NCBI GenBank assembly: GCA_002030045.1
Contig: LQBI01000024.1
Location: forward strand, 124,001-188,000
DNA length: 64,000 bases
Direction: 5' to 3'
Source: Candidatus Aegiribacteria sp. MLS_C
GTDB taxonomy: Bacteria > Fermentibacterota > Fermentibacteria > Fermentibacterales > JCC-6
A program made the position numbers and the translations under genes. Of this stretch, positions 58,208-63,962 are shown in pieces. How positions within the stretch are numbered: position 1 is the first letter of the stretch; each line of letters begins with the position of its first letter. The notes under the pieces are model-generated. The model had not been told where the DNA came from. It did no database searches and saw nothing but the letters and a program-made list of their open reading frames with translations.

Positions 58208-61200
58208 ATGTACAGGTCTCTTGCGGCGGCGTTATCGATGGTCTTCAGCGCACTGGCAGGTCAGGTAACTGCGGACCTCACGGACCTCGCGGCGCTTCCG
58301 GTGGAGATCCTGGGAAGTGCGGAAAGTACTCTGCCCATGGTCACTGGCGGCTACGCAGGCGCCAGGGCGGGGCTTCCCATGCTTCCGTCCATCCCGGTCA
58401 CACTGGACCTGCCTCCGGGTACCGAGGCGCTGTCCGTGGAATCCACCGCTTACTGGGAGACACTGGCCGCCGATGTGCATCTTCCCCCTCTTCCGGATCC
58501 AGCACCGCTTTCCTTGGCCTCCCTGCATACCGCTGCGGTGGAGGACCCTGAGGTCTACGGATCGGAGGGTTTCTGGCCGCGGCAGCCGGTATCGCTTTCC
58601 GGAACGGGGTTCAGGGAGGGCTCGCCCGTGGCGGAACTACTCGTCAGTCCCGTCAGATGGGACCCGGAAACAGGTGAGCTCCAGAGGATGACGGGGCTTT
58701 CGGTCACCGTCACCACCGCGCCTTCGTCCTCGTCTCCTGTCCCGGAAAGGGATACGGCTTCCAAGAGAATGCTCATAGTCACGGACCAGTCGCTGATGGA
58801 GTCATTCGAGTTGCTGGCCCTGCGCAGGACCGACCAGGGCATACTGACGCAGGTCGTGACCACCGATTACGTCTACTCCGTTTCCTCTGGAAGGGACCAG
58901 GCCGAGATGCTTCGGAACTTCGTCAAGGACTATCGGGCGTCCTACGGTCTGGACTATCTGCTTCTCGGGGGGGACGTGGACCTTGTCCCCTACAGGAAGG
59001 CCTATGCAATGACCTGCGAGGCGTTCATGCACGCAAGGGAGGACAGCCTTCCCTGCGATCTCTATTTCTCCGACCTGGACGGCGACTGGGACGCCAACGG
59101 GAACGATGTCTTCGGAGAGGTGGATGACGGTGTGGACCTGCATCCGGACATCTGGGTGGGAAGGGCTCCGGTTGAGAACCTGGCCGAAGCCGAAACCTTC
59201 GTATCCAACATCGCCGCATACGAGGACTGCCTGCACGACGATTTCTACCAGAATGTCCTGTTCCTGGCAGCGGTGCTCTGGTGGTCCCCGTACACCAATT
59301 CGGCCGAGAGCAAGGAACTGATAGACGAGGAGTACCTGCCCGGCTTCCTGGAAATAACCAAGCTCTACGAGGCTCTGGGCAACGAGAACCTTGCCACCAC
59401 CATGGCCGCAATGAACGAGGGTCAGAACTACATCAACCACAACGGCCACGCATGGTACAGCACACTGGGCGTTGGGGACGACTACATGTCAATCTCCGAT
59501 GTGGACGCCCTTGACTCTGACCGGAGGTTCGGCGCCACGATGTACTCCATCGGCTGCTGGAGCGCCGCTTTCGACTTCGACGCCATAGCCGAACACTTCC
59601 TTACCAATCCCGATGCCGGAACAGTGGGATACCTCGGGAACTCCAGCTACGGCTGGGGATCGCCGGGAAACCCCTGCTACGGCTATTCCGACGCCCTCGA
59701 CCACCTGTTCCACGATCTGCTCTACAGCGACTGGTCGCTGTCCACCGGACAGCTCCTTGCACTGACCAAGGAGTACTTCATTCCCTTCAGCCAGTGGGAG
59801 AACGTCTACAGGTGGCACCAGTACGACGTCAATCTCCTGGGAGACCCTTCCGTAAGGCCCTACAGGGCCTTCCCCGGCAGCGTCCTGATCGAATGCCCGG
59901 AACACGCCGCACCGGGCACACAGTTCTTCCCGGTACAGGTCACGGGAGCCTCCACCGAAGGTCTTACCCTCTGCCTCACCGACCGCGGCAGCAACTGGCT
60001 GGTGACCGAGCTGGACGCCACGGGCTACCACAGCTTCCAGCTGGACTATCCTCCATCCGATTCACTGAGGATCACCGTCACCGGTCCCGGCGTCAGAAGG
60101 ACTTCCACCGCAGTTCCGGTTAACGGCGGGCCTCAGCCGGTCATTGCCGGTGTCGTAATCGACGACCCCGGAGGGGACGGCATGCTTACCCCCGGCGACG
60201 GGGCCTCTCTGGAACTGACCATCCTCAACCAGGGCGACCAGGGACTGACGGACGTAAGCCTCGAGGCGGTCCTGGAATCAGGTCCAGGGTCCATGGTCCA
60301 GTCATCCGTGGATTTCGGCGACCTCCCGCCTGGGGAATCCTCCGCAGGTTCCGGACCCGTGGTCGTACAGGTGGACAGTTCCGCCTGCAACGGCCAGGTG
60401 ATGAACATGCTGATGCAGGTATCCGCAGCCGAGGGATCATGGGGACTGGAGCTATCCCTGCCGGTCTGCGCGCCCGGTCTGTACTTCGCCACATACGAAA
60501 TAGACGACAGCTATGGCGGCAACGACAACGGTGTGGCCGAGCCCGGAGAAACGGTGGACCTTACTGCCTCCATCGCCAACTTCGGCCTTCAGGCAGCGGA
60601 AACGGTGACCGTGGTCATGCACCCGTGTCCCCCCTACATCAACTGGATAACGGACTCGGCATCGGTTGGATCGATCCCGGCCGACGGCACCGCCAGCTTC
60701 CTCCTCACCTGCCAGCTGGACGGTTCCACTCCAGAACCTTCCTTCCCCTGGCTGCTCATGGACATCTCCTCGGAGACCGCCGCCTACTTCTCACTGGACT
60801 CCCTTCAGCTCAACGTCGGGGTTACGGGTATTTCCAACGACGTGGAGTCCGGTACCGCGGGATGGACACACGACGGGAGCGGCGACCTCTGGAACATCAC
60901 CAGTTCCCAGAGCCATTCGGCTTCCCATTCCTGGCACTGCGGGGACGCAGAGGGATACGATCCCGGAATGAACTGCGCCCTCTATTCGCCTGTGATCACC
61001 CTCTCACCCGGAGCGGAACTGAGCTTCTGGGCATCCTTCGATACCGCCATCTACGGCAGCGACGGACTGTACATAATAGTCGAGGGCACCGAGCAGACAC
61101 TGAGGGACACGCTGGACTACATCGGTTCCGGAGGAGCTCTGGGTCCGGGAAGAGGGATCGGCACCGGCTGGGCCATGTGGAGCTACGGACTGGACGACTG

Positions 61201-61594
61201 GAACGCCGGCCAGACAGTGCAGCTGGAATTCAGGTTCGTCTCCGATACGGATTCGGACACCGGAATGGGCTTCTACATAGACGACATGACCATCGAGGGA
61301 GCCTACGTCGGTTCCACTGGAAGCGGCGGGTCTTCCCCCCCGCTTCCCGTCATGGGGGATCCTTCGCCCAACCCGGCCGGGAACTGTTTCTCCGTCCCCA
61401 TCAACCTTACCTCTGGGGGCAGATGGGAATTCTCCGTATACGATATATCCGGACGACTCGTCCTGCAGGACTCGGGGGACGCTCCCTTCACCGGGCTGCT
61501 TGAAGTCGACTGCTCGGGACTCTCATCCGGGATCTACCTCCTGAGACTTTCAGGTGAGGCGGAGGCCAGGGGAAGGCTCGTGATACTGAGATGA
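58208..61594 (+). CDS. Gingipain-type C25 cysteine protease with C-terminal sorting domain
   Basis: The 1128-residue protein has a signal peptide (SLAAALSMVFSALAG), an N-terminal propeptide-like beta domain (~20-190) and a C25 catalytic domain (~195-560). DYLLLGGDVDLVPYRK and DLYFSDLDGDWDANGND (putative calcium site) lead to the catalytic His in INHNGHAWY near residue 412 and Cys in YSIGCWSAAFDF near 449. CARDB-like and jelly-roll domains follow. The end PSPNPAGNCF...SVYDISGRLV...SSGIYLLRL is a type IX sorting domain. It is predicted to be an extracellular protease. Its stop abuts the stop of the convergent FG-GAP gene (61595). Confidence 0.92.
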   Translation: MYRSLAAALSMVFSALAGQVTADLTDLAALPVEILGSAESTLPMVTGGYAGARAGLPMLPSIPVTLDLPPGTEALSVESTAYWETLAADVHLPPLPDPAPLSLASLHTAAVEDPEVYGSEGFWPRQPVSLSGTGFREGSPVAELLVSPVRWDPETGELQRMTGLSVTVTTAPSSSSPVPERDTASKRMLIVTDQSLMESFELLALRRTDQGILTQVVTTDYVYSVSSGRDQAEMLRNFVKDYRASYGLDYLLLGGDVDLVPYRKAYAMTCEAFMHAREDSLPCDLYFSDLDGDWDANGNDVFGEVDDGVDLHPDIWVGRAPVENLAEAETFVSNIAAYEDCLHDDFYQNVLFLAAVLWWSPYTNSAESKELIDEEYLPGFLEITKLYEALGNENLATTMAAMNEGQNYINHNGHAWYSTLGVGDDYMSISDVDALDSDRRFGATMYSIGCWSAAFDFDAIAEHFLTNPDAGTVGYLGNSSYGWGSPGNPCYGYSDALDHLFHDLLYSDWSLSTGQLLALTKEYFIPFSQWENVYRWHQYDVNLLGDPSVRPYRAFPGSVLIECPEHAAPGTQFFPVQVTGASTEGLTLCLTDRGSNWLVTELDATGYHSFQLDYPPSDSLRITVTGPGVRRTSTAVPVNGGPQPVIAGVVIDDPGGDGMLTPGDGASLELTILNQGDQGLTDVSLEAVLESGPGSMVQSSVDFGDLPPGESSAGSGPVVVQVDSSACNGQVMNMLMQVSAAEGSWGLELSLPVCAPGLYFATYEIDDSYGGNDNGVAEPGETVDLTASIANFGLQAAETVTVVMHPCPPYINWITDSASVGSIPADGTASFLLTCQLDGSTPEPSFPWLLMDISSETAAYFSLDSLQLNVGVTGISNDVESGTAGWTHDGSGDLWNITSSQSHSASHSWHCGDAEGYDPGMNCALYSPVITLSPGAELSFWASFDTAIYGSDGLYIIVEGTEQTLRDTLDYIGSGGALGPGRGIGTGWAMWSYGLDDWNAGQTVQLEFRFVSDTDSDTGMGFYIDDMTIEGAYVGSTGSGGSSPPLPVMGDPSPNPAGNCFSVPINLTSGGRWEFSVYDISGRLVLQDSGDAPFTGLLEVDCSGLSSGIYLLRLSGEAEARGRLVILR

Positions 61595-62809
61595 TCAGTC
61601 CAGCAGCACGAATGCGGACGAGAAACCGGCTCCTCCGGTATCAAGGAGTATGAAGTAGGTGCCTGAGGGTTGACGCGTCATGTCGATGACCAGCCGGTGT
61701 TCTCCATGCGCCAGCGTTCCCATATCGTTCTCCTCCACCGTCCTGCCGTCGATGGACAGTATTCGGACCAGTGCAGGTGTCGGTTTCCGGACCGAAATGG
61801 TCAGCGTGACCGCTGCGACCGCCGGATTCCCGTTCCGGAGGCGGATGCAGGGAACTCCCTCTTCCCACTGGTGCGGTCCGGTACCGGTGCTCTCAAGTCC
61901 AAGGAAGAGATGTATGGTTCCCTCCCAGGTGGAAGCCAGGAGATCGGGCAGTGCATCCCCGTTCCAGTCGCAGATCGATGGTCTGACGCAAGTTGTGAAG
62001 TTGATCTCCTGGCCGTCGGCGACCAGGTGGCTGTACTCGAGGAAAAGAGGGTCCTCCGGTGTACCGGAGTTCATGTAGCACGGGATCCTGCCCGTCGTGT
62101 TCCCGACTATTAGGTCCTCCAGTCCGTCCCCGTCGAGATCTCCGAAGTCCGGGTAGGATGCGTACAGCTGGATCGGCTCGCCTCCGCAGGTCACGGTATC
62201 GGTACCGCTGAAGAGGGGCTGTCCGGCGCTTCCCTCGTTCACATACAGGAAGAGGCCCGTCGGAACACCCTCCATTCTTCCCACCACCAGGTCGGTCAGA
62301 CCGTCACCGTTCCAGTCCGTTGCGCTGGGTGCGGAATTCAGGCCCACGTGTATCGGTCTTCCGGCAACCGGGACCATAGGACCCTGCTCGAGGTATATGT
62401 CCCCGAAGGACAGCCGCCTGAAGTAATAGACGTTGCCGAGCCTGTCACCGACCACGATGTCCAGGCGTCCATCGCCGTCCCAGTCCACAGCCTGCGGACT
62501 GGTGGCTCCGGTGCATCAACCGTAGGGAACGGAGAGGTAGTCGGCCCCGTCAAGCAGGTACTGGAACCCCTGGAACTCAGGAGAACCGGGCGTTCCGGTA
62601 TTGGCGTAGAACCTTATCCTGCCGTAATCGAACTGACCGCAGATCAGGTCCCTGAGACCGTCACCGTCCCAGTCCACCAGGAGGGGCGCTGCGTAGCCGC
62701 CCACATCTATCCGGTCCCCCGAGCTGGTCAGCTCCCCGAAGTAGGTGAACTCCAGGGGCAGACTCATCGAACATGCCGCCATTATCAGCTGCGGGTACAC
62801 GTACTTCAT
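61595..62809 (-). CDS. Secreted FG-GAP/VCBS repeat protein with an internal in-frame TGA
   Basis: ATG 62809 follows GGAAGGAGGGAG. The signal peptide is YVYPQLIMAACSMSLP. FG-GAP blades recur as PLLVDWDGDGLRDLICGQ, VDWDGDGRLDIVVGDR, TDWNGDGLTDLVVGR, GDLDGDGLEDLIVGN and CDWNGDALPDLLAS. A sorting-like end (ILSIDGRTV...SGTYFILL) closes it. After residue 97 (...LSVPYG) a TGA at 62518-62516 interrupts the frame, which continues without shift as CTGATSPQAVDWDGDG. So this is either a selenoprotein read as G-U-C-T-G (full length 404 residues) or a recent nonsense mutation splitting the gene. Confidence 0.65.
62480..62502 (-). promoter_or_regulatory. SECIS-like hairpin 13 nt after the in-frame TGA
   Basis: On the minus strand CCAGTCC-GCAGGCTGT-GGACTGG forms a perfect 7-bp stem with a 9-base loop that starts with G. 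The loop begins 20 nt after the TGA (62518-62516). This fits the general bacterial SECIS geometry, but short stems also arise by chance. Confidence 0.35.
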
Positions 62810-62945
62810 GGCTCTCCCTCCTTCCCGGTATCGAAGATAGGTCCGTTTGCGGCGGCTGGCAACGATGGATCCGTTGCATCATTGACGAGGTTACCGGACG
62901 GAAGCCCGCTGTCAGTATATTCACTCCTGAACCGAAGGGATGGAA

Positions 62946-63962
62946 ATGAAAGTTTTCTACGCCTCAACGAAGAACGGAGTCAGGTCCGCCGTGAGGGATA
63001 TGATCGAGGCGGCAGGTTTCATGAGCCTCCTTCCGCGGGGAGAGGATATCCTTGTCAAGGTCAACCTCACATGGGACTATCTGATGCCCGGCGTCGACAC
63101 CTCCCCATGGGTTGTGGAGGCCTTCGCCGAGGCCGTCGGAGACCATGTGGGCAGAATACACCTTGGCGAATCCAGCCAGATCCTCGTCGATGCGACCAGG
63201 GCATTCGAGGTGACGGGTATGAAGGCGGCGGCCAGGCGGAGGAACCTCGTATGGCACGACTTCTCCAGGGAGGAGTGGGTCAGCAGGGAGATTAACGGTC
63301 TGAGCTTCTCCATACCCGAGATCTGCACCAGGATGCCGGTCGTCTCGATACCTGTGGTCAAGACCCATTACAGGTCCGTCATCTCCGTGGCCCTTAAACA
63401 CCTGTACGGCTGCCTCGACGACAACAGGCACAACTACCACTACAGGCTGGCCGACTACGTGACGGCGGTGAACGCCGCGATACCGGTGCTCTTCACGATC
63501 GCAGACGGCACATTCTCTCTGGAGGGTAACGGACCCAAGCCCGGAATTCCGAAACAGACCGACTTCATCGCCGCATCCGAGGACAGGGTGGCTCTGGATT
63601 ATTCCGTGTCCCGGGTCATGGGCCTGGACCCTCTATCGGTGGAGACCACGCTGAAGGCTTACGGGACCGCGGGAAGCATCGAGAACGTCATCGACGTCTG
63701 CCTGCCCCCCCTTGAAACCCCCCCCTCCTTCAGTTTCGTGAAGGCGGCGCCCAATTTCGTCGCGAAGATCGAAGGTATCCTCAGGGGCAGGCGGAAACGG
63801 GAACCGGGAACCGACGGGCCGCTGATAGGGATCATGAAGTACGGCGCCAGGAGATGGTACAACCTTGCCTACCACCTGCTGGGGCAGGGCAGGCAGGCTC
63901 GAGGTATCATTCAGGAAAGCTACTACGGCCCCCAGTGGAGGGGCCTGCGGGAACCGGAGTGA
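62946..63962 (+). CDS. DUF362 domain protein
   Basis: About 338 residues from ATG 62946 (AAGGG six bases upstream; ATG 62940 is also in frame). VKVNLTWDYLMPGVDTSPWV, HLGESS and VSIPVVKTHYRSVISVALKHLYG followed by GCLDDNRH fit the DUF362 family, whose members are often fused to or coupled with ferredoxin domains. No cluster-binding motif is present here. Function unknown, possibly a redox or radical-related role. It diverges from the FG-GAP gene across about 135 bp; TATATT at 62916-62921 may be its -10. Confidence 0.82.
   Translation: MKVFYASTKNGVRSAVRDMIEAAGFMSLLPRGEDILVKVNLTWDYLMPGVDTSPWVVEAFAEAVGDHVGRIHLGESSQILVDATRAFEVTGMKAAARRRNLVWHDFSREEWVSREINGLSFSIPEICTRMPVVSIPVVKTHYRSVISVALKHLYGCLDDNRHNYHYRLADYVTAVNAAIPVLFTIADGTFSLEGNGPKPGIPKQTDFIAASEDRVALDYSVSRVMGLDPLSVETTLKAYGTAGSIENVIDVCLPPLETPPSFSFVKAAPNFVAKIEGILRGRRKREPGTDGPLIGIMKYGARRWYNLAYHLLGQGRQARGIIQESYYGPQWRGLREPE

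Follow-up and report, generated by a model that had tools for sequence, protein, structure and literature searches.

A gene on the minus strand of the window (the whole 64,000-nucleotide stretch that was analysed, from Candidatus Aegiribacteria sp. MLS_C) most probably encodes a selenoprotein, the UGA that interrupts its frame being very likely decoded as selenocysteine (Sec). On sequence grounds, a probability of about 0.96 was assigned to the reading in which this UGA is decoded by the genome's own SelA, SelB, tRNA-Sec and SelD and directed by a bacterial SECIS (bSECIS) hairpin. In the proposed mechanism, the hairpin downstream of the UGA would direct Sec insertion by this system, and the product would be an exported protein made up of an FG-GAP propeller of about five blades and, behind it, a C-terminal beta domain of the T9SS-sorting type; the loop that precedes the inner strand of blade 2 would carry a vicinal Sec-Cys pair. 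The decoding system is canonical, and the protein family is new and widespread as far as the checks made here can show.

Gene, hairpin and decoding machinery

Translation confirmed that the frame from 62809 to 61595 is interrupted solely by the TGA at 62518-62516, as stated in the preliminary description, and that the same holds for the placement of FG-GAP repeats on either side of it: the upstream part matched FG-GAP_3 with an E value of 1.3e-4, which is below the Pfam cut-off, and the downstream part with 4.6e-19, the PF13517 match in the downstream part scoring 69.2 bits against a gathering score of 26.9. The individual features are listed in Table 1. The DWDGDG loop of blade 2 follows immediately on the Sec-Cys loop, and its coding sequence shares bases with the hairpin's 3' arm. 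The anatomy of the gene is constant among the compared homologues, with about 98 residues before the UGA and about 305 after it.

Table 1. Positions of features of the predicted selenoprotein gene, numbered from the first letter of the window
Feature	Positions	Strand	Basis or detail
Predicted selenoprotein gene, ATG to terminal TGA (61597-61595)	61595..62809	-	404 residues, predicted Sec at 98; homologues with equal anatomy
Shine-Dalgarno-like AAGGAGG	62817..62823	-	Sequence; 7 nt 5' of ATG
FG-GAP blade 1 loop DWDGDG, residues 46-51	62657..62674	-	Translation and Pfam matches
UGA codon, very likely Sec, residue 98	62516..62518	-	TGA aligned here in 108 compared loci; paralogue
Predicted Sec-Cys pair U98-C99 in YGUCTG	62513..62518	-	Alignment; Cys-Cys in SelA-less planctomycetes
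Putative bacterial SECIS hairpin	62480..62502	-	5' arm 62502-62493, loop GGC 62492-62490, 3' arm 62489-62480
FG-GAP blade 2 loop DWDGDG, residues 109-114	62468..62485	-	Translation and Pfam matches
FG-GAP blade 3 loop DWNGDG, residues 165-170	62300..62317	-	Translation and Pfam matches
FG-GAP blade 4 loop DLDGDG, residues 224-229	62123..62140	-	Translation and Pfam matches
FG-GAP blade 5 loop DWNGDA, residues 281-286	61952..61969	-	Translation
C-terminal beta domain, T9SS type A sorting-like, residues 328-394	61628..61828	-	TIGR04183 18 bits, cut-off 23

The convergent neighbour (58208-61594, plus strand) encodes a 1128-residue peptidase C25 (gingipain-like) with a Por_Secre_tail sorting domain, and its stop abuts that of the predicted selenoprotein gene (61594/61595); this sorting domain suggests that a T9SS is present in the lineage. 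A gene for a DUF362 protein (62940-63962, plus strand) lies divergently on the other side. No partner gene was common to the flanking genes of ten loci of the family and no redox partner was found nearby, so that the functional proposal made below is based on the motif and not on an operon.

Bacterial SECIS elements have been modelled with a loop of 3-9 nt, a stem of 4-16 bp, a G in the first two loop positions, a distance of 16-37 nt from the UGA and an energy of at most -7.5 kcal/mol (PMC13188914). The hairpin of the window gene lies within these bounds, with a stem of 10 bp that begins 13 nt after the TGA, the 3-nt loop GGC 23 nt after the TGA and an energy of -15.5 kcal/mol. The preliminary description had placed the hairpin at the same 13 nt but had drawn it with 7 bp and a 9-nt loop, which is not its best form. 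Compared with synonymous recodings of the same peptide, the folding of the region gave z = -4.1, and an equally strong qualifying hairpin was found at 10 of the 1937 TGA trinucleotides of the window, this one included.

A search for the Sec machinery, suggested beforehand as a check, found SelA, SelB, tRNA-Sec (selC) and SelD all encoded in the genome, a 2.98-Mb MAG of Candidatus Fermentibacterota that is 97.65% complete. SelB adjoins SelA, and the anticodon of tRNA-Sec is UCA. SelD of this genome is itself Sec-containing, with an in-frame UGA in GPCAGUAGK (L194, G000:C32:128345-129268) and a hairpin CCA-GGC-UGG. It shares with the window gene the loop GGC and nearly equal spacing from the UGA (22 versus 23 nt) and differs from it in being an unrelated protein; it serves as an internal positive control.

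Conservation of the UGA and the hairpin

The second copy of the gene in the host genome is 42% identical and has one TGA, at the identical codon (VPYG-U-CTGATSPQ around the UGA in the window copy, MAYG-U-CTGSTNPQ in the paralogue). In a search of 42 genomes from the phylum, almost all long matches contained exactly one in-frame TGA, and the 108 compared loci with TGA at the aligned column come from Fermentibacterota and other phyla. Tandem Sec-containing copies are common (L149, L150, L165, L029, L025/L049), and the largest number of TGA copies in one genome is nine (G028). At this site homologues usually had TGA and less often Cys, and no member of the family had Trp; entries with TGG at the aligned column were unrelated FG-GAP proteins brought into that column only by the alignment. 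The Sec-Cys pair in G-U-C-T-G that readthrough had been expected to give recurs as YGUCTG in the paralogue, and UC is the most frequent pattern of the family. Other variants are CU (HCUPKTG), UGVC or UGYC, and U alone (UGHAA, UNDWS).

Two copies are without Sec, namely L174 (TDDCP) and L036 (GETTG, in which U and C are both lost). The latter belongs to a tandem pair whose other copy has GUCTG; its hairpin is still kept, and it is perhaps a recent inactivation. At a further locus (L198, G036:C381:20300-21500), TAA stands in place of TGA at the Sec codon. This is perhaps a decaying copy, since its sequence also includes a stretch of N and, further on, damage to the frame.

In the pairs examined, pN was well below pS both before and after the UGA, with dN/dS of 0.07-0.47 where computable; both halves of the protein are under purifying selection.

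The apical stem of the hairpin is formed in TGA copies by the codons of (N/S/G)-P-Q-(V/A)-(V/A)-D. Relatedness among the sequences means that the following counts are not independent. The hairpin-closing wobble base (position 3 of the second V/A codon) was G in 103 of 103 distinct sequences around the TGA and in 0 of 8 Cys copies, against a background in the same genes of 26% GTG among Val codons and 21% GCG among Ala codons; the base before Pro was T in 100 of the 103, and Asn before Pro was encoded by AAT in 43 of 43 cases (background 40%). GTG pairs with the Pro codon CCA and GCG with CCG (15 of 15), a compensatory change, and a further double change in the stem replaces C-G by U-A. The bSECIS geometry first proposed for the window gene is conserved in the family, with compensatory changes.

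A strict version of the bSECIS model from PMC13188914 was passed by 75% of 109 distinct sites, which likewise come from related sequences and are not independent, compared with 3.0% of synonymous recodings (random draws of synonymous codons) and 5.6% of all TGAs of the window. About a quarter of the sites failed this cut-off, mostly on energy. A plain minimum-free-energy test over 51 nt, significant in 32% of single genes, was weak per gene, and the hairpin-specific test with the synonymous-codon null was therefore used instead. The SECIS-like test was also passed after 11 of 36 terminal TGA codons of family genes from Fermentibacterota and Planctomycetota, where the hairpins are perhaps terminators; hairpins alone are therefore not trustworthy evidence of Sec.

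Outside Fermentibacterota, homologues with the motif GUCxGFxPQ and its relatives were found in Planctomycetota, Binatota and Armatimonadota, and isolated Verrucomicrobiota genomes contain a copy with one TGA; at least five phyla are represented in all, and the family numbers roughly 200 loci or more. Plasmid records held distant FG-GAP proteins only. Contigs labelled Stahlbacteria or WOR-3 (L048, L050, L061) hold sequences closely related to the Fermentibacterota copies, which reflect either horizontal transfer or misbinning or mislabelling.

SelA is nearly universal in Fermentibacterota and its co-occurrence with the family there carries no information as a test, so the comparison was moved to Planctomycetota. 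TGA copies were present in 91 of 392 planctomycete genomes, and SelA in 88 of these 91 versus 156 of the 301 others (Fisher p 9e-18, a value that ignores phylogeny). The three TGA-copy genomes with no SelA match (G246, G283, G401) are possibly incomplete MAGs. Cys-Cys occupies the site in a clade of six genomes (YCCVGAQPRFVD), none of which gave a SelA match. Cys replaces Sec also in G260 (GCCIGFTPQ) and at locus L067 (GCYVGF), in both cases with SelA present in the genome. A maximum-likelihood tree contains at least three Sec/Cys changes, with the Cys copies nested among Sec copies.

Predicted fold and export

An AlphaFold2 model of the window protein, built together with 51 relatives, has a pLDDT of 91 and a pTM of 0.75. 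The order of strands in the model and the five loops of DxDxDG type point to a propeller of five blades with a beta domain behind it. Foldseek searches of the PDB returned generic propeller matches only, with low whole-chain TM-scores, among them the BBSome and integrin alpha propellers, CRTAC1 and five-bladed glycosidases. By the predicted order of strands, the Sec-Cys pair immediately precedes the inner strand of blade 2 and would sit on a face of the propeller, near its axis. DxDxDG blades and the propeller fold are shared with known FG-GAP/VCBS proteins (PF13517, PF01839; integrin alpha, CRTAC1, BBSome), from which the window family differs by the Sec-Cys insert before the second blade and, judging by strand count, by having about five blades. 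To our knowledge, known FG-GAP/VCBS proteins contain no Sec.

The C-terminal beta domain resembles that of T9SS type A sorting-domain proteins (TIGR04183, PF18962); the window copy falls below the TIGR04183 cut-off (Table 1), the paralogue L011 exceeds it with 34.7 bits, and the planctomycete proteins had no match to this model. By eye, the window copy has a short hydrophobic N-terminal start, and L011 and most relatives have typical ones. The product is probably exported.

Alternative readings and relation to known selenoproteins

A private nonsense mutation, a pseudogene or a sequencing or assembly error that splits an ordinary FG-GAP gene at 62516-62518 is very improbable. The window gene is known from a single MAG sequence and the homologue with TAA at the site looks broken, but the paralogue and over 100 loci drawn from many assemblies all have TGA at this codon, which neither error nor private nonsense can explain, and the low pN relative to pS downstream of the TGA and the conservation of SECIS wobble bases also argue against such damage. 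A plain nonsense mutation, which the preliminary description had retained as the main alternative, is ruled out for the family by the conserved TGA. Reassignment of UGA in the lineage to Trp or another standard residue would equally place UGA within genes. It is refuted by the use of UGA as the terminal stop in 37 of 111 compared genes whose end was seen, the window gene included, in agreement with the earlier judgement that TGA is a normal stop here and general recoding unlikely; with each gene having a single in-frame TGA, always in the same column, TGG absent from that site throughout the family, and tRNA-Sec and SelB present, this reading is exceedingly improbable. Read-through without Sec, or a regulated stop, would yield a 97-residue product and a full-length one carrying an ordinary inserted residue. 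The stable downstream hairpin could promote read-through as well, and Sec insertion is rarely complete, so that a truncated product is also likely. Nonetheless, the association with SelA across Planctomycetota, the Cys-Cys replacement in the SelA-less clade, and a loop geometry that is that of a bSECIS and matches SelD of the same genome make this reading quite improbable and favour decoding of the UGA as Sec.

For the Sec-Cys pair so encoded, the motif tentatively points to an extracytoplasmic selenol/thiol redox site cycling as a selenenylsulfide, a role given somewhat less than an even chance; a soft-metal(loid) ligand site appears the next most likely. A selenoprotein lacking redox catalysis, in which the pair would be a structural or ligand site (for example for a soft metal or selenium) in an exported binding protein, is on balance unlikely. 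FG-GAP propellers are binding scaffolds as a rule, and no redox partner gene lies nearby, both of which would suit such a site; most selenoproteins, however, are redox-active, and the variants UC, CU, UGVC/UGYC and CC resemble redox motifs. Also consistent with a ligand site, the catalogued CU- or UC-type selenoproteins include metal- and organometal-related proteins (PMC13188914).

Adjacent Cys and Sec are catalogued as CU in HgcA, SaoL, SaoC, KCU-star and MbdU, and as GxUC in a CopZ-type 2Fe-2S protein (PMC13188914). These proteins resemble the window family in having a single Sec beside Cys and in decoding by UGA and bSECIS, and differ from it in having other folds and being mostly cytoplasmic or membrane proteins, none of them an FG-GAP propeller. 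No FG-GAP, VCBS or propeller family is included in the lists of prokaryotic selenoprotein families or subfamilies from 2022 (87 entries, PMC9312934) and 2026 (119 entries, PMC13188914) or among the nine families of deep-Sep (PMC12013277). No selenoprotein model of NCBIfam 20 matched at E values up to 1, and no relevant link of selenoproteins with FG-GAP or VCBS repeats was found in the open-access literature.

Listed selenoproteins are mostly thioredoxin-like. The gene described here adds an apparently uncatalogued and widespread selenoprotein family built on the FG-GAP beta-propeller, a scaffold absent from those listed. About one in four of the sampled Planctomycetota genomes and most Fermentibacterota have members of this family, as do at least three other phyla. 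Its genes are probably annotated as truncated or missed altogether. With a chance close to even, these propellers may constitute a new structural class of extracytoplasmic selenoenzyme, with a Sec-Cys selenenylsulfide switch on the propeller face and up to nine copies per genome, that would rank with the common selenoproteins in both Planctomycetota and Fermentibacterota and would have been missed because gene callers stop at UGA. As a data set on SECIS elements the family is clean and includes natural Sec/Cys switches, one of them coinciding with the absence of SelA, and it raises the testable question of what task exported Sec-Cys propellers would have in these mostly uncultured bacteria.
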